This document shows, piece after piece, positions 1 to 12,836 of a DNA stretch of 64,000 nt. A program made the position numbers and the translations under genes. Source of the DNA: Clostridia bacterium (GTDB taxonomy: Bacteria; Bacillota; Clostridia; Peptostreptococcales; Acidaminobacteraceae); assembly GCA_018399635.1 (NCBI GenBank), contig JAGYOH010000006.1, forward strand, positions 1 through 64,000, written 5' to 3'. How positions within the stretch are numbered: the first letter of the stretch is position 1; the number at the start of each line of letters is the position of its first letter. The notes beneath the pieces are model-generated. The model searched no databases and was not told the DNA's origin. It worked only from the letters and a program-made list of their open reading frames with translations.

Positions 1-12
1 GGCGTATTTGTC

Positions 13-26
13 TATAGTATACTATA
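13..26. promoter_or_regulatory. 14-bp perfect palindrome upstream of response regulator
   Basis: TATAGTATACTATA reads the same on both strands and lies about 90 bp before the response regulator start. It could be a dimeric regulator's operator or simply part of an AT-rich promoter. The window edge removes the upstream context. Confidence 0.3.
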
Positions 27-115
27 AACGTCAGTTACCCTCCACCTAAAGGTAGTGGGTTTCTGTGCCACAAATATTTATGAAAAAAGCCTTGCATAAT
101 ACATAGCGAAGTAGA

Positions 116-820
116 GTGATTCTTTTGAAAAAACATATCCTTGTTGTTGATGATGATTCGGCCATCGGCAAGCTCATCAAGCCCGCCCTGGACAAAAACG
201 GCTATCTGACCACGATACTCACCTCGGGGGAAGAGGCTCTCTTGTTGATGGACCGGACCCCTATCGACGCCGCCATCCTTGACATTGTCCTGCCCGGCAT
301 CGACGGTCTCGAGGTCCTCAAGAGGATTCGCGAGCATCCACGCTACAAGGCCCTGCCTGTCATCATCCTTTCCTCTAAAGACAGTGAAATCGAAACAGTC
401 CTCGGCCTTGAAATGGGAGCGGACGACTATCTTTTCAAGCCCCTTCGCTACCATGAACTCCTGGCCAGGTTGAAAAAGTTGATTTCACGCAGTGCCTTCG
501 TCCCCCCTGACAGGGCCGGTCACCTGGCCCGTTTCGGAATGGCAATCGACCTGGAATCAAGGATTGTCACGGGAAAGAAGGGTGAAATCGCCTTGACCTA
601 TCTGGAATTCGAACTCCTCAGCCTGCTGGCAAATCACCCTGGCAGGGTTTTCACCCGGGACAACCTTCTCGACGCCATCTGGCATGAAGACCAGTTCAAT
701 GAAACCCGCACGGTGGATGTCCACATTCGTCGCCTGCGCAAAAAACTAGAGGAAAACGATATCCACCCCGGTATCATTCAAACTGTCCGGGGTGTCGGAT
801 ACCGCATGGCCTCTGTGTGA
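116..820 (+). CDS. OmpR/PhoB-family DNA-binding response regulator
   Basis: The protein has 234 residues, the usual length for an OmpR-family two-component regulator. A receiver domain (about residues 6-120) has the acidic pocket DDD at 12-14, the likely phosphoacceptor Asp56 in the string AAILDIVLPGIDG, and the conserved Lys108 in DYLFKPL. A C-terminal winged helix (about 135-232) contains the typical TYLEFELLSLLANHPGRVFTR and VDVHIRRLRKKLE segments. The GTG at 116 or the TTG at 125 could be the start; both have only a weak ribosome site. No histidine kinase gene lies next to it and a terminator follows, so it appears orphan within the window. Its target is unknown. Confidence 0.92.
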   Translation: MILLKKHILVVDDDSAIGKLIKPALDKNGYLTTILTSGEEALLLMDRTPIDAAILDIVLPGIDGLEVLKRIREHPRYKALPVIILSSKDSEIETVLGLEMGADDYLFKPLRYHELLARLKKLISRSAFVPPDRAGHLARFGMAIDLESRIVTGKKGEIALTYLEFELLSLLANHPGRVFTRDNLLDAIWHEDQFNETRTVDVHIRRLRKKLEENDIHPGIIQTVRGVGYRMASV

Positions 821-862
821 GGCATCAGAATCGTCAAAGTCCTGTCCTGAAAGCTGCCAGTC

Positions 863-887
863 CCGCCCTTTAGTGGCGGTTTTTTTT
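863..887 (+). terminator. Rho-independent terminator after response regulator
   Basis: Stem CCGCC (863-867) pairs with GGCGG (875-879) across a 7-base loop and is followed by eight T residues. It ends the plus-strand transcript of the response regulator. Confidence 0.8.
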
Positions 888-943
888 GCTCCGGGCCACC
901 GCCGCCTTCCTTTCCGTCAATGCCTCTGGCGACCACCGATGTC

Positions 944-1357
944 TTAGAACTTTCTGTCCAGAAACTTCTTGATGGTGAGTCTGTTCTGCTTTTCCTTGTA
1001 CTCGTAATGCATGTCATCCATCAGGCTTTTCACCATCAGGATGCCCAGGCCTCCGACCTCCCGCTCTTCCAGATCGAGATTCACATCGATGGCAGGCTGT
1101 TCGAAGGGATTGAAGGGTGCCCCTTCATCGATGAAGGTGATCGAAACATAGTCCACCCCGTCCTCAAAGGCGATTTCCAGTTCCCCTTCTCCGTCGTCAT
1201 AAGCGTAATTCATGACATTGACAATGATTTCCTCACAGGCGGTAACCACCTTGATGATCGATTTCCGCTCGAATTCTTTTTCTTCCAGTTGTTCTTCAAT
1301 AAAGGCGGCGCACATTTCATAGTTCTCGATTTTGGCCTTGACTCTTAATTTTTTCAA
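944..1357 (-). CDS. RsbW/SpoIIAB-like serine kinase (HATPase) anti-sigma-type regulator
   Basis: This 137-residue protein is a GHKL-fold ATPase of the anti-sigma serine kinase type. The N box is visible in EEIIVNVMNYAY, the G1 box in FIDEGAPFNP and the G2 box in GGLGILMVKSLMDD. Such proteins bind a sigma factor or other target and phosphorylate a STAS antagonist. The gene is last in the minus-strand block, directly downstream of a STAS gene and beyond the peptide exporter. No sigma factor gene is adjacent, so its target is not known. The sigma factor at 37.7 kb has its own RsbW, which makes a separate target possible. Confidence 0.88.
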   Translation of the reverse strand: MKKLRVKAKIENYEMCAAFIEEQLEEKEFERKSIIKVVTACEEIIVNVMNYAYDDGEGELEIAFEDGVDYVSITFIDEGAPFNPFEQPAIDVNLDLEEREVGGLGILMVKSLMDDMHYEYKEKQNRLTIKKFLDRKF

Positions 1358-1393
1358 GGGTTATTCACTCCTGCCTTGGCATGACTCCAAGTT

Positions 1394-1696
1394 TTACGAA
1401 ATAGTTAGAATCCCGGAAAAACCTGTAATGTCGAAAACCTCCTTGACGGATTCGTTGGCATTGACGATTTCGAGTGCCGTCCCGAGGGATTTGACTTTTT
1501 TCTGTGCGGTCAACAGCACCCTGAGTCCCGCACTGCTGATGTACTCCAACTCTCGAAAATCAAAAATCAGACTGAGGGCCTCGCCTTCGAACAGATGACC
1601 CAGCTCGGTGGCCAGCTGGCTGCTGGTCACCGTATCCAGTCTTCCTTCAAGCTCTAAACGAGCCAGATTCCCTTCCATGGTAGTGGTGATTTTCAT
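1394..1696 (-). CDS. STAS-domain anti-anti-sigma factor
   Basis: The protein is about 100 residues, a single STAS domain like SpoIIAA/RsbV. The segment YISSAGLRVLL carries the expected phosphorylatable serine (Ser54 or Ser55 from the chosen start). The start at 1696 was chosen because AAGGAGG lies 9 bases upstream; another ATG two codons earlier sits too close to that site. The gene lies between a double-glycine peptide gene and the RsbW-like ATPase. Together with the SpoIIE-type phosphatase at 9.0-10.9 kb it completes a partner-switching trio wrapped around the exporter genes. Confidence 0.9.
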   Translation of the reverse strand: MKITTTMEGNLARLELEGRLDTVTSSQLATELGHLFEGEALSLIFDFRELEYISSAGLRVLLTAQKKVKSLGTALEIVNANESVKEVFDITGFSGILTIS

Positions 1697-1716
1697 GGGC
1701 ATATTCCTCCTTGAAT

Positions 1717-1998
1717 TTACTTTCTTTCGTTCACGGACAGGTTGCAGACCATGTAGGTGCCTTCCCAGCTCTTGTACCGGCAGTAGCTGCAGCATTTCGT
1801 CCCCCTCATGCCGGGATCGACACCCTCCCTGATTTCAAACCCTTCGCAACTGTAAGACCCGGTCACGATGCGTTTTCCGCTGACAGGAGACTGAGTGCCT
1901 CCGGTCACGGTATCGAGATCGTGTTCCGAGAGGGTTGCCGAAGGCTCAGGCTGGTTGTTTTTTTGACTGTCCCCTTTGAACTTCTTTTGCTGGTCCAT
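1717..1998 (-). CDS. Double-glycine leader peptide, cysteine-rich (exporter substrate candidate)
   Basis: The 93-residue product has a short hydrophilic leader ending in LSEHDLDTVTGG (residues 23-34), the double-glycine motif cut by C39-type exporters. The 59-residue remainder holds five cysteines (51, 69, 70, 73, 85). The part C70-x2-C73-x-Y75 followed by Y82-x-V-C85 resembles the end of the product at 8337-8732. AAAGGAGG lies 11 bases before the ATG. The gene follows the second ABC transporter and precedes the STAS gene. The leader is much shorter than the Nif11-like leaders of the other candidates. The mature activity is unknown. Confidence 0.75.
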   Translation of the reverse strand: MDQQKKFKGDSQKNNQPEPSATLSEHDLDTVTGGTQSPVSGKRIVTGSYSCEGFEIREGVDPGMRGTKCCSYCRYKSWEGTYMVCNLSVNERK

Positions 1999-2014
1999 TT
2001 TCCCTGGTCCTCCT

Positions 2015-4192
2015 TTACAGGATTTGTCGCTTTGCCAGTTCGAAAAAGGCTCCCTTTCGAGCCATCAGTGTCTCAAAATCCCCTTCTTCCACGCATCTGC
2101 CCTTGTCCAACACGATGATCCTGTCACAGTGGCGAATCGTCGACAACCGGTGGGCGATGACAAGCCTGGTGCCTTTGAGAGATTCAAGACTCCCGGCGAC
2201 ATGCTTCTGGGTGACGTTGTCCAGGGCCGAAGTCGCCTCGTCGAAGAAAATGATCTTCGGTTTTGCCACCAGGGCGCGGGCGATGAGCAGTCGTTGACGC
2301 TGTCCTCCCGACACACCGCCACTCCCCTCACTGATCAGGGTGTGCATTCCCATGGGCATGGCCTCGATTTCCTGGTCCACCCCTGCGAGTCTGGCCGCCT
2401 CCCAGGCGTCATCCAGGGTCTTCCAGGGTGCCGTCACGATGATGTTGGAAAAAATATCCCCGGGAAACAGCCTGCCGTTCTGCAGGGACACGCCGATGTT
2501 CTGCCGGGTCGACTGGAGATCCAGGCTTTCCAGATCATGGCCGTCGTAGTAGATCGCCCCGGTTTCCGGTTTTTCAAAACCCAGCAACAGCCGCATGAGG
2601 GTGGACTTGCCGCTGCCGGTCTTGCCTACAATGGCCACGTACTCCCCCCTGCGGACCTTGAAACTCAATGCGTCGATGATGACAGGACCGTCGGGATCAT
2701 AGCGGAAGGTGACCTCGTTGACCTCGAAATTCCCGGATAGGGCGGTCACGATACGCTTGTTCTCCGACTGCTCAGGGAGAGTTGCCATGATCGGACGGGC
2801 CATTTCCAGGAGGGGCCGGATGCTTGCCACGCTGGATGCAATGCCTCCCAGGGCCATGGTGGCACTGCTCACCGCGCCATAGGCGATTGAGAAGGCGATA
2901 TAATCCGCCGCAGAGATGCCGGATCGACCCGCCAGGAAGTAGAGCAGCAGGGTCCCCGTCATGGTGATCAGGGTGGAAACCGCCATTTTATAGCGCCTGA
3001 CGGGGGGTGGCGAATACTGTCGTTTTCCCAGTTTCGCATACAGGGACGCCCATTTGGCAAAGGCCCTTTTCTCCGCCCCGGCGAGCTTGATCTTCTGGAC
3101 GCCGCTCAGCAGGGCGTAGACAAGCCCTGACAGCTCGGCCGACAGGTTCATCCGGATTCTCATGCTCTTCACTTCCATCAGGGTCGTCATCAAGGTGTAG
3201 GCCAGGGAGACGCCGATGACTGTCAATCCGGGCATCACGAGAACCGGCGCATAGTTGACCATCTGAAAAATATAGACGAAGGAAAACAGGGCCGTCAGTC
3301 CCGTGGTCAACACCCCGCCGGACAGCAGGGTGGCCAGGTTGTTGATGCTCATCACACGGCTGCTCAGTTCCCCTGCGGAATACTGCTTGAAAAAGGAGGT
3401 GGGCAGACTGAAAATCCTCATCATGATGGCGATCTGGACAAAATTCGCCTTGTCCTGAAACCTCGCCAGCAGCAGGCTCCGGGTCATGCCGAAAATAGTC
3501 GTTCCAATCCCCACCCCGACCATCAGGATGGCGATGGGGAGGATATTCCCCTGGATGCCCGATGGAATGATGCCGTCGAAAATCTGTTTGTTGATAAAGG
3601 GAGTGAAGAGGCCCAGCAGGGCAATGACCAGACTGACCGCCATGACAAAAAGGACGTCATTCAAACTGATGCTTTTCATCATATAGTGCCCTATATCGAT
3701 GAGTTTGAGGGCTCTGGCCGGCAGAGGCCGGTAAAAACTGAAGCCCTCCCGCTCGATCTGCCTGGCGGTTTCCTGGTTGATCTTGATGGTTTTCCCCGTG
3801 GTCGGATCCCTATACCCGTAGCCGGACAATTTTCCCGGCATGATGGCGACGGTGACCCCCTCTTTCGTGCTGGCCAGTATGGCCCCGTTGGCATCCTTCC
3901 ACCACTCACCCAGCAGTTCCACCCTCCGCCGCATGATGCCCGTCGGTCGAAGCATGTATTCGAACCGGGCATCCAGGTCCGTGATGTATTCCGGCACCGC
4001 CGCTGCCGTGGCCCCGTAATGGCCCAGAATCTCCTCGAGAGCGCTTTTGATCAGCTGTTCCTTCTCCCTCCGGGTCCCCCCGCGGGTGGCCATTCCCAAA
4101 ACTGATGCCAGGTCTGAAAAGGCCTCTTCAAACATCCTTTGGTCGTTCTGCCTTCGCGTATTCAATTGTTCATCAAATATGTTGAAATCCAT
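2015..4192 (-). CDS. NHLM-type peptide exporter, ABC permease/ATPase without peptidase
   Basis: The protein has 725 residues. The first 150 or so are soluble and lack the Cys/His/Asp of a C39 peptidase. Then come about six membrane segments (roughly 175-450) and an ATPase domain with Walker A GKTGSGKSTLMRLL, signature VSGGQRQRLLIARAL and Walker B IIFFDEATSALD. This matches the second ABC protein of the nitrile-hydratase-leader/Nif11 peptide export systems (NHLM ABC2). The gene starts about 50 bp after the peptidase-bearing ABC gene, so the two probably form a heterodimer or act together at the membrane. The ribosome site is weak. Confidence 0.88.
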   Translation of the reverse strand: MDFNIFDEQLNTRRQNDQRMFEEAFSDLASVLGMATRGGTRREKEQLIKSALEEILGHYGATAAAVPEYITDLDARFEYMLRPTGIMRRRVELLGEWWKDANGAILASTKEGVTVAIMPGKLSGYGYRDPTTGKTIKINQETARQIEREGFSFYRPLPARALKLIDIGHYMMKSISLNDVLFVMAVSLVIALLGLFTPFINKQIFDGIIPSGIQGNILPIAILMVGVGIGTTIFGMTRSLLLARFQDKANFVQIAIMMRIFSLPTSFFKQYSAGELSSRVMSINNLATLLSGGVLTTGLTALFSFVYIFQMVNYAPVLVMPGLTVIGVSLAYTLMTTLMEVKSMRIRMNLSAELSGLVYALLSGVQKIKLAGAEKRAFAKWASLYAKLGKRQYSPPPVRRYKMAVSTLITMTGTLLLYFLAGRSGISAADYIAFSIAYGAVSSATMALGGIASSVASIRPLLEMARPIMATLPEQSENKRIVTALSGNFEVNEVTFRYDPDGPVIIDALSFKVRRGEYVAIVGKTGSGKSTLMRLLLGFEKPETGAIYYDGHDLESLDLQSTRQNIGVSLQNGRLFPGDIFSNIIVTAPWKTLDDAWEAARLAGVDQEIEAMPMGMHTLISEGSGGVSGGQRQRLLIARALVAKPKIIFFDEATSALDNVTQKHVAGSLESLKGTRLVIAHRLSTIRHCDRIIVLDKGRCVEEGDFETLMARKGAFFELAKRQIL

Positions 4193-4241
4193 CGAAACAA
4201 CCCCGCCTTCGATTTTCTGTTGGTTCCCTGGTTTTCAGGGC

Positions 4242-6380
4242 TTATTCACTCGTGACAAGTTCGGTGTATTTCCCGCCCAGGGCGTACAACTGATCATGGG
4301 TCCCCCGCTCCACCACGACCCCCCGGTCCAGGACCAGGATTTCATCACAATCTCTGATCGTCGACAAGCGGTGGGCGATGACGATGCAGGTCGCACCGAT
4401 GTTTCGAATATTGTTCATGACCTCTTCCTCCGTCTTGGCGTCCAGAGCGCTGGTCGCCTCGTCAAGAATGATGATGGTGGGCTCCTGGGCCAGTACCCGG
4501 GCAATCTCGATCCGCTGCTGCTGACCTCCGGAAAAGTTCTTGCCCCCCTCTTGAAGAAGACTGTCATACCCTTGATTCCGGGTGATGATGGCTTCGTGGA
4601 TATCCGCATCCCGGGCGGCCATGATCACGGCGAAGTCCTCGATGGAGGCGTCCCACAGACGGATGTTGTTGGCCACGGTATCCTCGAAAAGGGTGATGTC
4701 CTGATCGACCATGGCCAGGGAATTCTTGAAGATGTAGTCGGAGTGTTCCTGTCGTTTTTTCCCGTCGAAACGCAATTCACCGCTCCAGGGGTCGTAGAGG
4801 CCGGCGATCAGTTTTGCCAGTGTTGATTTGCCGCTGCCGCTGCCGCCGACAAAGGCGACGGTCGAACCGGGCTTCAAGGAAACGGAGAAATCCCTGATCA
4901 GGGGTTCCGACAGGCGGTTGTAGCCGAAGGTCAGGTTCTTGATTTCAATTTCACCTGCCAGTTTTCCTGCGGAAAGATCCTCCACCTGTCCCTCAAGGGT
5001 ATCCGTCTGGTAATCCATGACGTCCTGAACCCGTTCCATGGAGGACCGCATGGTAATGAAACCCTGGCCGACGCCGATCAGTTGATTCACCGGTGACATG
5101 AAGGATCCCAGAAATCCCTGGAAGGCCAGAAGCATACCGATGGTGAAATCTCCCTCCATGATGAAATAGACACCGATCATGAGGATGGCGATGCTGGTCA
5201 CTTGTTGCAGAAATTGGGGAATCGTATTGTAGTAAAGGTCGAAAACGGTGTTTTTCACCCGGGCGTTGTGGTCCTTGACGAAGTAACCCGCCCAGCGCTC
5301 GAAGAATCCACGCTCCGCCCCCGCCGCCTTGATGGTTTCAATCATCATGATGCCGGACATGGTCACCCCGGCCAGTTTGCCGCCACTGGCCTGGAGGGAC
5401 CGGCTCAGATCCACCTGTTTTCTGGCTGAATAACGCATCACCGCCATGTTGAGAAGGGCCGCCCCCAGGCCGATCAGGGTCAGTATGACGCTGTACTGGA
5501 GCATGATGGTCAGATAGATAACCAGCAGCACCACGTTCATGAAGACCGGGGCCAGTTGGCGGATCAAGGTGCTGGCGATCTGTTCATTGGAGGAGAGACG
5601 GGACACGATATCCCCGGCATATCGCTGGGAGAAGAACTCCACGGGCAGCCTCAGAACGTGCCACATGAACTGGGAATTGGCCGTAATGGCGAATCTTCCT
5701 TCAATCCGAAGCCAATAGTGGGCCTCGATGACTCCCACCACGAACTGGAAAAGGATCAAGAGGAAAAAGGCCAGGACAAAGGGAAGGAGCCATTCCGGGT
5801 TCTTTCCCGACAGGATGTAATCCATGAACACCTTTGAAAACAGCGGACTCACCACGCCGATGAAGGCCACCAGAATCCCCGTGAACACCACGAAGGCGAA
5901 GGCCGACAGGGTCCCCTCCAGCCGTTTTCTGGCAAATTCCAGAACACTCGGCGGCTTTCCCTGGGGAACAAAATCCTTTCCCTTCTCGAACTGCAGGACG
6001 ATTCCCGTGAAGGAGCGGTCGAATTCCTCCATGGGCACCTCCACGGTGCCTCTGGCGGGATCATTGATCACCGCCTTGTCTTTCTTGTAGCCGTTGAAGA
6101 CGACAAAATGATTGAAGTTCCAGTGAATGATGGCAGGGAGTGGCATCTGGGAAAGCATCCGGGGCTCCATGCGGAATCCCATGGCCTTGAGTCCGTAGAC
6201 CCGGGCGGCCCGGACAATGCTCTTGGCACTCGAACCGTCCCGGGACACCCCCAGATCGGCACGGACCTTCTCCAGGGGAAGCCATTTCCCGTGATAGGCC
6301 AGGACCATGCACAGGGCAGCCGCCCCGCATTCCAGCGCTTCCATTTGAAGAACCACCGGCACCTTGGCGATTTTAGCCAT
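4242..6380 (-). CDS. NHLM-type peptide exporter with C39 leader peptidase
   Basis: This 712-residue protein joins three parts. An N-terminal C39 peptidase (about 1-135) shows catalytic Cys18 in ALECGAAAL, His91 in WNFNHFVVF and Asp107 in INDPARG. A six-helix permease region covers about 160-430. A C-terminal ATPase has Walker A GGSGSGKSTLAKL, signature FSGGQQQRIEIARVL and Walker B TIIILDEATSALD. The family cuts leaders after Gly-Gly and exports the rest. It lies between the short HlyD-like adaptor and the second ABC gene and should process the double-glycine peptides encoded on both sides of it. Confidence 0.93.
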   Translation of the reverse strand: MAKIAKVPVVLQMEALECGAAALCMVLAYHGKWLPLEKVRADLGVSRDGSSAKSIVRAARVYGLKAMGFRMEPRMLSQMPLPAIIHWNFNHFVVFNGYKKDKAVINDPARGTVEVPMEEFDRSFTGIVLQFEKGKDFVPQGKPPSVLEFARKRLEGTLSAFAFVVFTGILVAFIGVVSPLFSKVFMDYILSGKNPEWLLPFVLAFFLLILFQFVVGVIEAHYWLRIEGRFAITANSQFMWHVLRLPVEFFSQRYAGDIVSRLSSNEQIASTLIRQLAPVFMNVVLLVIYLTIMLQYSVILTLIGLGAALLNMAVMRYSARKQVDLSRSLQASGGKLAGVTMSGIMMIETIKAAGAERGFFERWAGYFVKDHNARVKNTVFDLYYNTIPQFLQQVTSIAILMIGVYFIMEGDFTIGMLLAFQGFLGSFMSPVNQLIGVGQGFITMRSSMERVQDVMDYQTDTLEGQVEDLSAGKLAGEIEIKNLTFGYNRLSEPLIRDFSVSLKPGSTVAFVGGSGSGKSTLAKLIAGLYDPWSGELRFDGKKRQEHSDYIFKNSLAMVDQDITLFEDTVANNIRLWDASIEDFAVIMAARDADIHEAIITRNQGYDSLLQEGGKNFSGGQQQRIEIARVLAQEPTIIILDEATSALDAKTEEEVMNNIRNIGATCIVIAHRLSTIRDCDEILVLDRGVVVERGTHDQLYALGGKYTELVTSE

Positions 6381-6397
6381 TCTCCCACCTGCCTGAC

Positions 6398-6976
6398 CTA
6401 TCGCAACAGCAATTCATAAGGCTTTCTCTCCTTCGTGATGACGGCAATATTGACATAAGCACCCTTGCTGATTTCAATTTCGCGGCCCAGAGGACTCGAC
6501 CACTTGAGTTCACCCTGGTCCATCTGGTAGCTGATCGTGATGGCTACGGGGTTGCCCTCGGGGATGAGGCTTTCCACCCACTGCAGGCTGCCGAAGGTGC
6601 CTAGAATCTCCTCCTCCATCACCGGGGTCTGGCCGATGGACCGGATGACCCCCAGGGCATAGCCGTATTCCTCCCGCGGGGCGTATTCCGGTGAAAGCTG
6701 GGCCGTCATGCCCTCCCGCATTCGCTTGGCGACCTCCATGGGGACATAGGCATAGATCATCTGCTCCGCCGTTGCCCCCTCATAGGCGATTCCCTTGATC
6801 TTGACGGTTTCAGGAATCGTACCGATGACGGCCCAGATTCCCACTGAAATGATCAGGGCGAAGAGGGCGATCAAGAGCAGCCAGATGCCGCCATTTGTCA
6901 CCTTGACATATTCATTCAACTGCTCCGGGGAAGAAATCTTCTCCAGGGAACTCTTTCTAAAGATGCTGTTTTCCAT
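6398..6976 (-). CDS. Short HlyD-like secretion adaptor of NHLM exporter
   Basis: The start at 6976 gives a 192-residue protein. It has GGAAGGTGGGG just upstream and a family-like N-terminus (SLEKISSPEQLNEYVKV) before one membrane helix at about 31-52. The rest is a small extracytoplasmic beta domain. Canonical HlyD adaptors are roughly twice as long because of a coiled-coil hairpin, and no such hairpin is visible. The short form fits a single-membrane cell where no outer channel must be reached. The start overlaps the end of the candidate gene at 6957-7259 by 20 bp. Confidence 0.8.
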   Translation of the reverse strand: MENSIFRKSSLEKISSPEQLNEYVKVTNGGIWLLLIALFALIISVGIWAVIGTIPETVKIKGIAYEGATAEQMIYAYVPMEVAKRMREGMTAQLSPEYAPREEYGYALGVIRSIGQTPVMEEEILGTFGSLQWVESLIPEGNPVAITISYQMDQGELKWSSPLGREIEISKGAYVNIAVITKERKPYELLLR

Positions 6977-7259
6977 TGGCCCCACCTTCCGTGATTGATT
7001 CGATTTGATTCCCGCAATGACAGGCCGGACCGATGAATCCGCCGGTGGCGAAGGACCGTTCAACCTGCGACAAGTCCACGACACCCAGGGAATCCTCACC
7101 GGAAGCATGAATGCGGACCACCCGTGAATCGGAAATCCGGCGGCTGGCAAAAATGCTTTCAACCCCCGTCTGTCGCTGCAGGTTCGAAAAGGTTCCCTGC
7201 ACCTTTTCAAAGTGGTCATTGCGCTGTCTTGTCTTCAAGAGTGCCTCACAGGCTTCCAC
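6957..7259 (-). CDS. Possible small protein with degenerate double-glycine motif
   Basis: This open frame of 100 codons starts with GTG and overlaps the adaptor start by 20 bp. Its composition looks more like a real protein than the competing frame, which is rich in Arg and Pro. Near the end it has LSQVERSFATGG (residues 63-74), which lines up with the double-glycine motifs of the neighbouring peptides, followed by a 26-residue tail containing Cys-His-Cys. The first 60 residues are not recognised. It lies in the same frame as the upstream peptide gene, just after that gene's TAG stop, and has only a poor ribosome site. It could be a precursor, a coupled gene or a gene remnant. Confidence 0.45.
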   Translation of the reverse strand: MEACEALLKTRQRNDHFEKVQGTFSNLQRQTGVESIFASRRISDSRVVRIHASGEDSLGVVDLSQVERSFATGGFIGPACHCGNQIESITEGGANGKQHL

Positions 7260-7280
7260 ATTGACGCCCCGGCTTCTTCC

Positions 7281-7637
7281 CTAGACCGGAAGGTTGGTGA
7301 AATAACCCGCTTTACAGTAGACGATGGGTCTTCGGTTGATCTTGTCATATCCTGTGCGCAATTCCGGGCACATGTTGATGCCGCAGTGCAGGATGCTGAA
7401 GGATTGCAGGCAGTCCGTCGGCGCGGCCCCCCCGGTCACTTGAACCAGCTCCTCCTCCGACAAAATTCCCGGAGGCTTTTCATCCACCTCTGATTTCCAC
7501 TCGGCTTCGGTAAATTCAAACCCCTCTTCCCTGGCCAGGGCCACAATGGCCGTGACGGTTTCAGCCTGAAGAAATTTCTCCCTCAAGGCTTCGTCGGCCT
7601 TCATTCCCATGACAAAGGTCACGATGTTTTCTGTCAT
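7281..7637 (-). CDS. Nif11-type leader peptide, cysteine-rich exporter substrate candidate
   Basis: From the ATG at 7637 (AAAGGAGTGAAGAAG upstream) the product has 118 residues. The first 70 form a Nif11-like leader (MTENIVTFVMGM, then AREEGFEFTEAEW) that ends in LSEEELVQVTGG. The 48-residue tail has four cysteines at 76, 85, 90 and 108. Nif11-type leaders are known from families of ribosomally made peptides exported by NHLM-type transporters. No modification enzyme is encoded nearby, so whether the tail is modified, disulfide-bonded or metal-binding cannot be told. Confidence 0.85.
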   Translation of the reverse strand: MTENIVTFVMGMKADEALREKFLQAETVTAIVALAREEGFEFTEAEWKSEVDEKPPGILSEEELVQVTGGAAPTDCLQSFSILHCGINMCPELRTGYDKINRRPIVYCKAGYFTNLPV

Positions 7638-7708
7638 CTTCTTCACTCCTTTAATCATTTCCAGCCGGACCCGACACTTGTCGAGCCGCTGCACACACCG
7701 GTCTCGTC

Positions 7709-7742
7709 GCTCCCCGGGTCCCTCAGGTCGTCACCGGGGAGC
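7709..7742 (-). promoter_or_regulatory. GC-rich hairpin between peptide genes
   Basis: GCTCCCCG (7709-7716) pairs with CGGGGAGC (7735-7742) in the roughly 195-bp gap before the Nif11-type gene. There is no T-run, so it is not a typical terminator. It could be an mRNA processing or stability element that sets unequal expression of the peptide genes. Confidence 0.35.
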
Positions 7743-7832
7743 CGGTGGTTTCACAAGACATGCCTTCGACCTATTTTGAAACCTCAATCTTCACCAGGCG
7801 GTCCTCCGCCAGCCACTCTTGACGACCCTCTC

Positions 7833-8219
7833 CTAAGGGAAGAAATGCTCGATTTCTCGTCGAATGCCGACGTTGCTGTGGCCCGTCGCGTTTCTGTGGG
7901 CCATGAGCAGCTCTCCGGCCTTCAACAAGCCTCCATCCGACTGCGTGAGCCTGACCGTTCTGCTCCACCCGCAATCCGTGCATTCACAAATATAACGCTC
8001 CTCGAAATTGTAACTCCCCTGGCCCCCCGCTATCTCCTCGAGGTCCTCCTCGGACAAGACTTCGGCTGATTCCTGAAGATCCTCCGGCTGCAGAACAAGC
8101 CCCGCCGCCTTGGCAACAGCGGATTTTTCATCGAGGCTCCCGGCCTGATTGAACTGCCTTAAAAAATCCTCATCCTCATTCATTTTCTTGATCAAGGCTT
8201 TCATTCTTTCCTTTGACAT
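7833..8219 (-). CDS. Nif11-type leader peptide with C2H2-like core
   Basis: The 128-residue product has a Nif11-like leader (1-66) ending LSEEDLEEIAGG. Its 62-residue core contains C78, C80-x2-C83, then H108-x5-H114, the spacing of a classic C2H2 zinc finger, followed by a basic, aromatic tail. GGAGGAATAATCA precedes the ATG. The gene is the second small gene after the phosphatase in the minus-strand block. A zinc-binding exported peptide is an inference from the spacing alone; disulfides among the cysteines are an alternative. Confidence 0.83.
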   Translation of the reverse strand: MSKERMKALIKKMNEDEDFLRQFNQAGSLDEKSAVAKAAGLVLQPEDLQESAEVLSEEDLEEIAGGQGSYNFEERYICECTDCGWSRTVRLTQSDGGLLKAGELLMAHRNATGHSNVGIRREIEHFFP

Positions 8220-8336
8220 TGATTATTCCTCCAGACAAGTCGGTCTATTGTTGGTGATTGCCTTCATTTTCCTGCTCCTGATTTACAGACTTCCCGCCGG
8301 CAGGATTCCCTTTCAACCCTCTTCTCCCATTCAGGC

Positions 8337-8732
8337 CTACTCCCAGATCATTTCACTGCCGATGTTCTGGCAGACCAGATCATAACCGTTGGGTCCCATG
8401 CTCTTCTTCACATAGGGACAATTCTTGCAATTGTCATCGACAACCCCGACCTGCCCCATGCCGAACCAAAGCACGAATTTCGTATGCCCGTTGGGACAAT
8501 TGCTGATGGGACTGTAGAATCCTCCTCCGGCGACCTGGTCCAGTTCATCATCCGACAAGGCCTCCCCCCCGGTGTTTTTGACCATGAGTCCCTTCACCCG
8601 GTCCTCCTCTTCAGCCGTCATGACGACACCCCTCACGGCCAGGTAGACCATGAAGGCTTCCATGGACCCCACTTCTCTGATCTTGGATTTGAACGCTTCT
8701 CCTTCTATTGCCATCAATTCTTCCAGTTTCAT
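8337..8732 (-). CDS. Double-glycine leader peptide with four-cysteine core
   Basis: The product has 131 residues. The leader (1-70) ends LSDDELDQVAGG and is helical and acidic as in Nif11/NHLP leaders, though less typical than its neighbours. The 61-residue core has Cys79 in a CPNGH motif, C102-x2-C105 and Cys121, a layout reminiscent of a small zinc ribbon. C102-x2-C105-x-Y107 and Y117-x2-V-C121 recur in the product at 1717-1998. AAGGGGGAATTGCG precedes the ATG. It is the first peptide gene after the phosphatase gene, separated by about 275 bp in which I see no further gene. Confidence 0.8.
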   Translation of the reverse strand: MKLEELMAIEGEAFKSKIREVGSMEAFMVYLAVRGVVMTAEEEDRVKGLMVKNTGGEALSDDELDQVAGGGFYSPISNCPNGHTKFVLWFGMGQVGVVDDNCKNCPYVKKSMGPNGYDLVCQNIGSEMIWE

Positions 8733-9007
8733 CGCAATTCCCCCTTTTTTTTATTGGCGATCCTCATGACGTCTTCCACCCGGAGATGCGTATTCAGTCT
8801 CGGCACCTGATTGAAATCCCCGGATCCAGCCCCGCCGCCAGATGCGCTTGAAGGGCCGGACCTGAATCAAGGGTCCTCTCAGTGATGCCTCTGCCTGGAG
8901 TCAGGTCAAGGGGATCGTGTGACAATTCTACGTGAGAAGGTGACAAAGGTGTGCCCCTTGCCGGATTCTTCAGTCGGTGACCAGGCCCTCCCACAGGGAC
9001 GACGGCC

Positions 9008-10861
9008 CTAGGCCTTGTTCTCGCGGAGCATCAAGGCCAGCATGGTGACATCGTCAGAAGCCGGCGTATCCAGGACAAAGCGGTCAATCTCTTGTCTCAT
9101 GCCCCCGATGATTCCCCGGACGTCGCTGTGTTTCAGGCGGTTGGCCGCCGCCACCATGCGGCTGTCTCCAAGAAGATCATTCTGAGCGTTGGTCGCCTCG
9201 GAAACACCGTCGGTATAGACGAACAACCGGTCATGGGGCTTCAAGACGGTTGTGAGAGAATCATACCGGTAGTCCTCCATGCCTCCCAGCACCAGATAGT
9301 GGTTCACTTTGAGGAAGTCGAAGTCACCGCCCTCCCTTGAGACAAGAGGAGGATTGTGACCCGCACTGATGTATTCCAGTTCACCGGTCCTCGTATCGAG
9401 AATGCCCATGAAAACCGTCACAAACATATTTTCTTCATTGTCGGAGCACAGCAGGTTGTTGGTCTGGTAAAAGATATCCGGCATTGAATTACCCTGAAGC
9501 ACCTGGTTTTTGAGAATGGTCCTGGTGATCACCATGAAGAGGGCGGCAGGGATTCCCTTTCCCGAAACATCGCCGATGCTGAAGCACAACCGATGATCGT
9601 CAATCAGAAAGAAATCATAGAAATCACCCCCGACCTCCTTGGCCGGCTCCATGGTGGCGTATAAATCCAGATTCGCCATGTTGGGATAGGGGGGGAACAA
9701 GCGGGGCAGCATGCTGGTCTGGATTTTGTTCGCCACCTCGAGTTCACTCTGGATCCGTTCTTTTTCCGCCGTCGTTTTTTTCAGGTTTTCTATGTAATCG
9801 ATGAGGTTGGTCTTCATCTTGCTGAAGTCATCCGCCAGTTCCTCGATCTCATCCCCCGTCCTGATATCGAGAGCATGCTGGAGATTCCCGCCGCTGACGA
9901 TCCTGACCCCCTCCTTCAGGGCGAGGATCGGCGTCGTGATGCGCTTTGAGATGATGAAGACCACCAGGAGGACGATTCCCATGATCCCGCTCATCAGCAA
10001 GACCACCTGCCGCATGAGATTCATGGCCGGACCCATCAGTTCATCTTCGTAGAGAGAGATGCCCAGGGTCCAGGAAGGGGTGCCCGGGATCGGGTTGAAG
10101 ACGGTAACCAACTTTTCTCCATCGGGATTTTCATAGGCCATCAGTCCCGGCTCCCCTTCGAGCATGCGTTCTCCGATTGCCTCAAGGCCCCGGTACCCCC
10201 ATTCATCGGATTCAAGGTAATTCATGGTCATGACCAATTGGTCCTCGGGATAGGCAATCAGCAGTCCGGTCTGGTCCACGATATAGCCAAAACCCTGCTC
10301 ACCGATTTCAATGGCCCTGGCAATCTCCGAGAGGGTCTTCAAGAGGACCGTTGCCGCCATGAGTCCCGTTTTCTGGCCGCGGTCGTCATAAACCGCCCTG
10401 GCCACCACGAGCATTCTGGCGCCGGTTGAATAGGAAATCACCGGCTCGCTGATATAATAGCTGTGTTCCCCGAGAATAATGGCCTTGTAGTAATCACGGT
10501 CCCTGATATCTCCCCGTTTTCCCTGGGTGGTGACATAATTGCCCTCAAGATCGGCATAGAACAGAATTTCGTAGTCCCTGTTGATGCGGTCCGCCTGGGC
10601 CATCAGGTCTGCTTCAATCTCCTCAAGATCCCCTCGGCGGACCAGGTCCCGCCGGGACATGATGGTGACTTCGTTGACATACCCCTCCACCAGTCTCGCG
10701 ATTTCCGCCGACCTGGCAACCAGCACCTCCTGGCTGAGATGCCTGGTCAACGGAATCACCGTGTCACCCACCTCCCTGTAAACCACCACCCCTGAAACAG
10801 TCAGCAGAATGAGCAGCGACAGCCCGAACCAAAGCAGCATTTTCCCTCTAATCGATTTCAT
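9008..10861 (-). CDS. Membrane sensor SpoIIE/RsbU-type PP2C phosphatase
   Basis: The start at 10861 follows GGAGGGAAGG and gives 617 residues. One membrane helix (about 7-28) precedes a large extracytoplasmic sensor of the dCache type. A second helix lies at roughly 285-305, followed by a HAMP domain, a short coiled coil and a C-terminal PP2C domain with DFYDFFLIDDHRLCFSIGDV, SAGHNPPLVS, FVYTDGVSEATN and DDVTMLALM. These phosphatases dephosphorylate STAS proteins and so release a partner-switch target. It is the first gene of the block running to the STAS and RsbW-like genes, so it is the likely input that tells the export system about an outside signal. Confidence 0.92.
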   Translation of the reverse strand: MKSIRGKMLLWFGLSLLILLTVSGVVVYREVGDTVIPLTRHLSQEVLVARSAEIARLVEGYVNEVTIMSRRDLVRRGDLEEIEADLMAQADRINRDYEILFYADLEGNYVTTQGKRGDIRDRDYYKAIILGEHSYYISEPVISYSTGARMLVVARAVYDDRGQKTGLMAATVLLKTLSEIARAIEIGEQGFGYIVDQTGLLIAYPEDQLVMTMNYLESDEWGYRGLEAIGERMLEGEPGLMAYENPDGEKLVTVFNPIPGTPSWTLGISLYEDELMGPAMNLMRQVVLLMSGIMGIVLLVVFIISKRITTPILALKEGVRIVSGGNLQHALDIRTGDEIEELADDFSKMKTNLIDYIENLKKTTAEKERIQSELEVANKIQTSMLPRLFPPYPNMANLDLYATMEPAKEVGGDFYDFFLIDDHRLCFSIGDVSGKGIPAALFMVITRTILKNQVLQGNSMPDIFYQTNNLLCSDNEENMFVTVFMGILDTRTGELEYISAGHNPPLVSREGGDFDFLKVNHYLVLGGMEDYRYDSLTTVLKPHDRLFVYTDGVSEATNAQNDLLGDSRMVAAANRLKHSDVRGIIGGMRQEIDRFVLDTPASDDVTMLALMLRENKA

Positions 10862-11012
10862 TGGCCTTCCCTCCATAAACCCTGTTTTGCCCTGTGAACC
10901 AAGACAAAGAACCCCCGGCTTCTTCTGCGCGGCATCTCCTTGATCCTCATGCCGGATTTTCAACCCGCCTATGGCCGGCACACTCCTGCCTTGGCCAGAT
11001 CATACCCCTCCA

Positions 11013-11041
11013 ATGTTACAATTCTTCGGGACTATGTTACA
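11013..11041 (-). promoter_or_regulatory. Direct repeats upstream of phosphatase/export block
   Basis: ATGTTACA (plus-strand sense) occurs at 11013-11020 and again at 11034-11041, exactly 21 bp apart, about two helical turns. A TATGAT-like -10 lies about 10 bp further toward the phosphatase gene. The arrangement suggests a tandem binding site for an activator such as a response regulator. Confidence 0.45.
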
Positions 11042-11113
11042 GCCGGGTAACGGAGAAATCGTGACCACCGCAAACCGTCGGTGGGGCATCAAGCCACAGG
11101 GCCGTCATGGACG

Positions 11114-11145
11114 ACAAAAGTCCCCGCAAAGTATTGCGGGGACTT
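11114..11145 (-). terminator. Terminator of tRNA-Arg
   Basis: A 12-bp stem (11118-11129 with 11134-11145) around a 4-base loop, followed on the minus strand by four T residues, lies just downstream of the tRNA 3' end. Confidence 0.85.
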
Positions 11146-11150
11146 GATTT

Positions 11151-11227
11151 TGGCGCACCCGGCGGGAGTCGAACCCACGACCTACCGCTTAGGAGGCGGT
11201 TGCTCTATCCTTCTGAGCTACGGGTGC
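11151..11227 (-). tRNA. tRNA-Arg (anticodon CCT)
   Basis: The minus strand gives a complete cloverleaf of 74 nt plus an encoded CCA. The acceptor stem is GCACCCG/CGGGTGC. The anticodon stem ACCGC/GCGGT encloses the loop CTCCTAA, so the anticodon is CCT and reads AGG. The T arm is GTGGGTTCGACTCCCGC. It stands alone between the antiporter operon and its terminator. Confidence 0.95.
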
Positions 11228-11282
11228 AGAATTCATCGGTGGGGACCGATGGCGCCCCGCCTTCTGAAAAGGCGGGAGCGGT

Positions 11283-12836
11283 TCAAATGAAAACCACGAG
11301 ACTTAAAACGAAAAACACCAGCAGGACGATCCCGTTGTCAAAGGAAAGGGAGAAATGACGCATCTTCTTCATCAAGGCCTTCTCATGGATGCCGAAGGCA
11401 AAGAACCAGGTGATGCCGAGCAACACCTCGAAGGAGGTCTTTACCAGGTTCATGGGCTTGAAATAGTACCACAGATCCCTGGTCATGCTCTGATAATCGG
11501 GGAAGAGGGTCCCCAGGAAAAAGATGGCGAGGGACAGGAAGCCCATGGCCACGTACTTGCTGGTCTTGACATCGACCTTGACGGGCTGGTGGGAACCCAG
11601 AATCTGGAGAATCTTGAACATGGATCCCGCCGTCAGACTGTTGACCAGGACCAGGGGGAGCAACTGCCACAAGGGCAGATTCATTCCCATGGCGCTCTTG
11701 GCGATATAGCCGCTGGTGAAGGGAATTCCCGCCAGGGCAAAGGTGCCGATGATCAGAAAAACAGACAGCAACGAGTCATTTTCCCATAAGCCTCTGATTT
11801 TGTCAACCCGGCGTTCCTTGTATTGGTTGATGACAATGCCGGAGCCGAGAAAGAGCAGACTTTTGATCAGGGAATGGCTGACCAGATAAAGTAGCGCCAT
11901 ATCTATATTAATCGAAAACGCGATCATAATCAACCCAATCTGGCTGACCGTGTGAAAAGAAAGAATCTGCTTGATGTCCTTCTGGGAAAAGGCGAATACC
12001 ACTCCCATGAGGGCGGTGAAGATGCCCAGAAGGTAAAAGAGCCCGGAAAAGTCAAAAATCTTGAAGACCGAGGTGAGCTTCATCAGACCGATGATGCCGG
12101 TCTTGACCAGCAATCCCGACAAGAGGGCGGAGATTGACGTGATGGCGGCGCTGTGGGCCTTGGGCAGCCAGTCGTATACCGGAAAGACGGCTGACTTGAC
12201 CCCGAAGGCGCTCACCATGAGAATCACCCCGATTCTCACGGTATCGTCCATGCCGGTTGCCGTCACCAGCTCGGCCATCAGACTCAGATTCAAGGTCCCG
12301 AATCTGAGGTAGAGGATGATGACCCCGATCAGGTAGATCATCATGCCCACGGTATTGAAGAGCAGATAGTAGATTCCCGCCTTGAGGGAATGGGCGTCCT
12401 TCTTGTAGATGATCAGGATCGTGGAGATGATGGTGATCAGTTCCAGCATGACGAAAATATTGAAAATATCATCACTGAGGACAAAGCCGTTGAAGGTCCC
12501 CTGAAGCAGGAGCACAAAGAACAGGAACTTGAAATCGTGGTCCTTGCTTTGATAGATGAAGATCAGAATCACCGTGAAGAGGAAGGTCGCCAGGATGATG
12601 AAGGTCGCACTCAGTGCATCGAATTTCAGGCCGATGCCGATAAATGGCTCCCAGCCACCGATGACCTCGTAGAGCACGATCCCCTTCTTTACCGCTCCCA
12701 GGAGCTGCAGGGTGATGACCATGACCACGGCTTCGGCCAGGTAGATCCAGCGGTACAGTTTCACTGAATTCACCAGATAGATGAAGACCCCCAGGACAAT
12801 GGGAAGAAATATCAGGGTGTAGAGCAGCTTTTCCAT
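11283..12836 (-). CDS. mnhD: Cation/proton antiporter subunit D (MnhD/MrpD/MbhH-like)
   Basis: The 517-residue protein is a NuoN/MrpD-family proton-translocating subunit with about 14 membrane helices. The conserved region VYDWLPKAHSAAITSISALLSG and a Lys/Glu-rich membrane core are clear. It is the last gene of the eight-gene operon and abuts the preceding subunit C gene with no gap. It is the only large antiporter-type subunit here; a full-length MrpA is absent, as in Mbh-type modules. It would move ions across the cytoplasmic membrane for Na+/pH balance. Confidence 0.92.
   Translation of the reverse strand: MEKLLYTLIFLPIVLGVFIYLVNSVKLYRWIYLAEAVVMVITLQLLGAVKKGIVLYEVIGGWEPFIGIGLKFDALSATFIILATFLFTVILIFIYQSKDHDFKFLFFVLLLQGTFNGFVLSDDIFNIFVMLELITIISTILIIYKKDAHSLKAGIYYLLFNTVGMMIYLIGVIILYLRFGTLNLSLMAELVTATGMDDTVRIGVILMVSAFGVKSAVFPVYDWLPKAHSAAITSISALLSGLLVKTGIIGLMKLTSVFKIFDFSGLFYLLGIFTALMGVVFAFSQKDIKQILSFHTVSQIGLIMIAFSINIDMALLYLVSHSLIKSLLFLGSGIVINQYKERRVDKIRGLWENDSLLSVFLIIGTFALAGIPFTSGYIAKSAMGMNLPLWQLLPLVLVNSLTAGSMFKILQILGSHQPVKVDVKTSKYVAMGFLSLAIFFLGTLFPDYQSMTRDLWYYFKPMNLVKTSFEVLLGITWFFAFGIHEKALMKKMRHFSLSFDNGIVLLVFFVLSLVVFI

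Follow-up and report, generated by a model that had tools for sequence, protein, structure and literature searches.

A Nif11-leader precursor with a predicted zinc-finger-like core beside an NHLM peptide exporter in a Clostridia bacterium

Introduction

Peptides released from Nif11-leader precursors are, for the most part, interpreted as ribosomally synthesized and post-translationally modified peptides (RiPPs). Passages in Haft, Basu and Mitchell (2010; PMC2887384) place the Nif11-derived peptides (N11P, TIGR03798) next to the NHLM exporter in several species. Here, we analyzed pepB, a gene for a putative exported peptide located on the first 64,000 nucleotides of contig JAGYOH010000006.1 of a Clostridia bacterium (NCBI GenBank assembly GCA_018399635.1; family Acidaminobacteraceae), a stretch hereafter referred to as the window. 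pepB resembles the N11P and their exporter (TIGR03794, TIGR03796, and TIGR03797) in its leader, which scores over the family cut-off, in its Gly-Gly motif, and in its position next to both exporter ATPases, but differs from them in its core, a 62-amino acid (aa) predicted globular fold, and in that searches of the genome (95.55% complete) turned up neither a YcaO nor a LanC-like enzyme.

Two other described systems are close to pepB in part. With classical C2H2 zinc fingers, it shares C-x2-C and H-x5-H pairs and a predicted beta-beta-alpha order, yet the gap between its pairs is 24 residues rather than ~12, it carries an extra C-terminal strand, it is an exported peptide, and it has no Pfam match as a finger. 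With class II, i.e., unmodified, double-glycine bacteriocins, it shares cleavage after Gly-Gly and, presumably, export without enzymatic modification, but it has a long Nif11 leader and a metal-ligand core, and no bacteriocin family was matched over cut-off in scans of the cluster proteins. No description of zinc-finger cores behind Nif11 leaders was found in literature searches (titles and abstract openings). Overall, at slightly less than even confidence, we propose that pepB gives rise to a zinc-finger-like miniprotein exported in unmodified form, presumably zinc-bound and with a presumptive role within a cocktail of Cys-rich cores. Judging from the structural model, such a core appears to be an unusual cargo for an NHLM-type peptide exporter.

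Results

pepB is a gene under purifying selection with paired Cys and His residues

The pepB open reading frame (ORF) starts with ATG, six bases downstream of a GGAGGAA motif. Its leader matched TIGR03798 at 46.6 bits (curated cut-off 32.3) and PF07862 at 31.9 bits (cut-off 23.8). A search for relatives of the whole peptide returned matches in 4 of 99 genomes at an expectation value (E) of 0.01, its own included. Since one of these contained internal stops (G023) and another lay inside an unrelated 540-aa frame (G054), both were rejected and one real relative remained, in a genome of the same genus (G001, LQBE01000041.1, delta proteobacterium ML8_F1), 82–83% identical to pepB. Between the two, the ratio of non-synonymous to synonymous substitution rates (dN/dS) was 0.18 overall, 0.22 for the leader, 0.14 for the core, and 0.09 for residues 76–115, and the codons of C80 and H108 differed only synonymously. 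The pepB ORF is thus a genuine gene under purifying selection.

The first-pass annotation had described a Gly-Gly cut site followed by C80-x2-C83, H108-x5-H114, and an extra C78, all of which are present in the 128-aa ORF, with the cut site at Gly65-Gly66. The Cys and His residues of the core are C78, C80, C83, H108, H114, and H125, the last being a further His absent from that description. The exact arrangement C-x2-C-x24-H-x5-H occurred in a fraction of 1e-4 of core shuffles, and a loose version (C-x2-C-x10-30-H-x3-6-H) in 0.0065 (n=200,000), although these odds apply to a pattern chosen after the sequence was seen.

Beyond the close relative, searches returned no further homologue that withstood inspection. 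At E 0.05, an order-wide search with a core profile matched 18 of 393 genomes, the real matches being pepB itself and the one same-genus genome; among the 16 others, the 10 frames that were read were short, broken, or unrelated and were rejected, while the remaining 6 were left unread. Phylum-wide, 7 of 398 genomes were matched at E 0.02 and, pepB’s own genome aside, five of the six matches were translated and all five rejected. Of the unrelated order-wide matches, the best (L011, E 0.00136) had the form C-x2-C-x25-H-x5-H but lay opposite a better-looking ORF. A tblastn search of the core against plasmids (15 records) and phages (38 records) gave E 0.7 or worse among the matches listed, no relative was found in the viral contigs searched, and the best PDB sequence matches had E 0.27 for the core and 1 for the whole precursor.

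The core is predicted to fold as a hairpin, a helix, and a further strand

AlphaFold2, run on the pepB core with two alignment rows, gave a mean predicted local distance difference test (pLDDT) score of 84.8 and a predicted template modelling (pTM) score of 0.65. The model comprises strands at core residues 5–14 and 20–25, a helix at 30–46, and a strand at 51–60. Numbered along the precursor, C80 is the last residue of the first strand and C83 falls in the turn; H108 belongs to the helix, and H114 lies a little beyond its end. Given this order of elements, the four ligand residues should be close to each other, because the topology brings the end of the helix back to the turn of the hairpin. 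The core of the sibling peptide pepA, modelled at the same two-row depth, reached a pLDDT of 45.2, so that a high score is not automatic for such cores. The first-pass interpretation is supported in part: the model predicts a beta-beta-alpha order of elements with good confidence, placing CxxC at the turn of the hairpin and the two paired His where the helix ends. Fold-library matches were not significant.

A sub-threshold family match depends on the four candidate ligands

Among Pfam families, the core weakly matched DUF7542 (PF24398), which we take to be halobacterial, with 14.0 bits and E 0.041 over core residues 8–49. This is well under the gathering cut-off of 28.2, and membership is not claimed. 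The match dropped out of the list when C80, C83, H108, H114, or G113 was replaced by Ala, and was retained upon changes at C78, H125, or W85. As the match was lost with each ligand change, the DUF7542 profile rewards the same four residues. A second sub-threshold match, to HutF_N (E 0.13, core residues 17–32), was also seen in the relative; being independent of the four ligands, it was set aside as chance, and it is comparable in weakness to the match with DUF7542.

pepB lies in an exporter gene cluster with three sibling peptides

The cluster lies entirely on the minus strand and runs from 10981 to 944, in the order RsbU-like phosphatase, pepA, pepB, pepC, HlyD-like protein, the two ATP-binding cassette (ABC) proteins ABC1 and ABC2, pepD, STAS, and RsbW (Table 1). 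The C39 peptidase domain of ABC1 retains C18, H91, and D107, presumably the catalytic residues, and the protein aligns over this domain with solved relatives, including the bacteriocin transporter 4ry2 (E 8.6e-90). Together, the leader, the Gly-Gly motif, and the adjoining NHLM exporter with its C39 domain give good support, at the level of sequence, to the earlier claim that pepB is an exported peptide. The true start of pepC is probably the Met codon at 7635–7637, and the HlyD-like protein likely starts near 6980 (6398–6983).

A fixed scan for double-glycine precursors over window positions 1–12000 returned exactly pepA to pepD, with 3 to 5 Cys per core. The same scan in the ML8_F1 relative returned five peptides, the fifth being a Nif11-leader peptide (L007, 4599–4988) between pepA and pepB that has no counterpart in the window. 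None of the ten cluster proteins scanned was a modification enzyme. Three SPASM matches were found in the genome, all on other contigs (C1 and C7) and none on C33. Searches for Omp85 and Spo0A gave no match.

Table 1 Features of the pepB locus, in window coordinates.
Feature	Position	Strand	Description	Basis or remark
pepB	7833..8219	-	Nif11-leader precursor, 128 aa	TIGR03798 and PF07862 scores, dN/dS 0.18
pepB leader	8022..8219	-	Residues 1–66, Gly65-Gly66 at end	
pepB core	7836..8021	-	Residues 67–128 (62 aa), predicted strand-hairpin-helix-strand	AlphaFold2
C80-x2-C83 codons	7971..7982	-	Predicted hairpin-turn metal pair	
H108-x5-H114 codons	7878..7898	-	Predicted helix-end metal pair	
GGAGGAA	8226..8232	-	Ribosome-binding-site-like, before pepB	Inference
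pepA	8337..8732	-	Sibling double-glycine peptide, core with 4 Cys, CPNGH/CKNCP	Nif11 leader 17.1 bits, below cut-off
pepC	7281..7694	-	Sibling Nif11-leader peptide, 4-Cys core	TIGR03798 48.9 bits
pepD	1717..1998	-	Sibling double-glycine peptide, core with 5 Cys	Conserved in L008
HlyD-like protein	6398..7219	-	Short HlyD-like secretion protein, without long middle part	TIGR03794 109.9 bits, below cut-off 156.2
ABC1	4242..6380	-	NHLM exporter, N-terminal C39 peptidase	TIGR03796 942 bits, over cut-off; PF03412
ABC2	2015..4192	-	NHLM exporter	TIGR03797 726.6 bits, over cut-off
RsbU-like phosphatase	9008..10981	-	dCache-HAMP-SpoIIE phosphatase	
STAS	1394..1795	-	Anti-sigma factor antagonist	
RsbW-like kinase	944..1357	-	Anti-sigma kinase	

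Cys-rich cargo and partner-switching genes at other NHLM exporter loci

Cores with at least three Cys were found at 4 of 24 other exporter loci of the order (L065, L066, L067, and L076) and 3 of 28 loci of the phylum. One 4-Cys core family joins pepC (7281–7694), two peptides of ML8_F1 (L007, 5570–5935 and 4599–4988), and six peptides of L076 (2491–5261), a locus from another, distant family of the order; in the nine-row alignment of these cores, the four Cys and one Gly are invariant. Partner-switching genes (RsbU/STAS/RsbW) occur near the NHLM exporter at 10 of the 24 other order loci (L061, L063, L065–L069, L073, L076, and L079), i.e., at all four with Cys-rich cores vs 6 of the 20 others (Fisher p 0.02, post hoc). 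The HlyD-like protein measures 192 aa in ML8_F1 and 207 aa in L076, vs 283 to 528 aa at 11 other measurable loci, its length being unmeasurable at 12 of 25 loci. These patterns hint at a subtype of exporter whose cargo is folded and rich in Cys.

Two further loci carry related arrangements. At L082, a possible Ala-Gly leader followed by a zinc-ribbon-like CPFC..CSFC tail (1001–1378) adjoins a Nif11 peptide. At L067, a radical SAM/SPASM protein (4770–6158) adjoins both a Cys-rich Nif11-type peptide (6177–6611) and an NHLM exporter.

Discussion

How the pepB product may be exported and folded

In the mechanism that we propose, the Nif11 leader would dock the precursor on the neighboring NHLM ABC exporter, whose C39 domain would cut after Gly65-Gly66, as family matches suggest. 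The freed 62-aa core could then fold by itself into the predicted, enlarged C2H2-like finger, i.e., a beta hairpin with C80-x2-C83 at the turn, a helix ending near H108 and H114, and an extra strand, clamped by one Zn(II) or similar ion that would replace disulfides. Outside the producer, the core would presumably act alongside the three sibling Cys-rich peptides delivered by the same exporter. This cocktail would most likely be bacteriocin-like or serve in signalling, and would be controlled by the flanking RsbU/STAS/RsbW partner-switching module. The leader, the exporter, and the predicted fold are the supported parts of this scheme; we infer the zinc, the extracellular folding, and the biological role.

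Several results weigh against a zinc-finger-like core. The first-pass annotation had called the spacing that of zinc fingers, which holds for both pairs but not for what separates them: because the inner gap is 24, the core does not match the classical C2H2 pattern (C-x2-4-C-x12-H-x3-5-H), and no C2H2 Pfam family was matched up to E 10. The core has three Cys, C78 making the number odd. A scan for C-x2-C-x10-40-H-x2-7-H, which recovers pepB and its relative, found the pattern in 0 of 39 double-glycine cores at the 24 other order loci and 0 of 26 at the 28 phylum loci, i.e., in none of 65 other cores from 52 loci. Fold searches with the model gave no match under E 0.41 against PDB or under E 0.07 among viral folds, and the best VIA Z, 5.5, was to proteins other than zinc fingers; zinc fingers were absent among the fold matches listed, which excludes nothing for a model this small. 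The DUF7542 signal should be considered marginal, because this family was unlisted at E 10 for the core of the ML8_F1 relative and because the HutF_N match is independent of the ligands. Finally, the first-pass annotation had proposed checking whether homologues conserve the ligands together. All are kept in the only relative; at 83% identity this is a weak test, and a single relative this close can reveal little on ligand co-conservation.

Taken together, pepB is filed as a Nif11-leader peptide, and neither as a classical C2H2 zinc finger nor as a DUF7542 member, but may nonetheless work like a zinc finger.

Alternative explanations

A RiPP would be the conventional reading of the leader: the core would be modified by an enzyme encoded elsewhere in the genome, e.g., a SPASM radical SAM protein, and its zinc-finger look would be incidental. 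According to Haft, Basu and Mitchell (PMC2887384), members of TIGR03798 often serve as precursors to peptides that undergo modification. The three SPASM matches in the genome, and the radical SAM/SPASM gene that adjoins a Cys-rich peptide of Nif11 type at L067, point the same way; however, those matches lie on C1 and C7 rather than C33, and the genome yielded neither a LanC-like nor a YcaO protein. A confidently predicted globular core, such as that of pepB, is atypical of a RiPP, and we regard modification as improbable. Extracellular Cys often form disulfides, and all four window cores are Cys-rich, so that pepB could instead carry one disulfide among C78, C80, and C83 after export, with the His incidental. 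Yet the three Cys, odd in number and all within a stretch of six residues, are badly placed for a stabilizing cross-link, the weak match to DUF7542 requires the His no less than the Cys, and both His are retained in the relative, which makes this option unlikely, if less so than modification.

The four residues might also sit near each other, or in finger-like order, by chance and without binding metal. The loose pattern arises in shuffles at 0.0065, and the L011 match, in a frame opposite a better-looking ORF, indicates that a search through hundreds of genomes will bring up patterns of this kind. Against chance, the predicted fold puts the pairs at finger-like positions and the match to DUF7542 relies on these very residues; coincidence therefore strikes us as hardly more probable than modification. 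The least probable alternative, in our view, is a metallophore-like carrier, in which pepB would be exported to capture zinc or another metal and then be re-imported, the metal being no structural clamp. Metal-ligand-like residues in an exported peptide and further Cys- and His-rich cores in the same cluster would fit, but no dedicated uptake gene was seen among the ten cluster proteins scanned, importers elsewhere in the window or genome not having been searched.

Implications for NHLM exporters

A broader reading, doubtful but somewhat more probable to us than any of these alternatives, is that an NHLM exporter subtype, marked by a short HlyD-like protein and partner-switching genes, exports a mixture of small folds that are clamped by metal and carry no modification. 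The zinc-finger-like core of pepB, together with the zinc-ribbon-like and 4-Cys cores of its neighbors and of relatives, would then form a family of exported zinc-finger miniproteins. For pepA itself, the zinc-ribbon idea is no more than a lead, its model being too poor for use.

If pepB does encode an unmodified, metal-clamped finger core, the same leader and exporter would also send out small folded domains, and zinc-finger-like scaffolds would join the list of exported bacterial peptides. The pepB core would then be a ready test protein for how the exporter handles foldable cargo.
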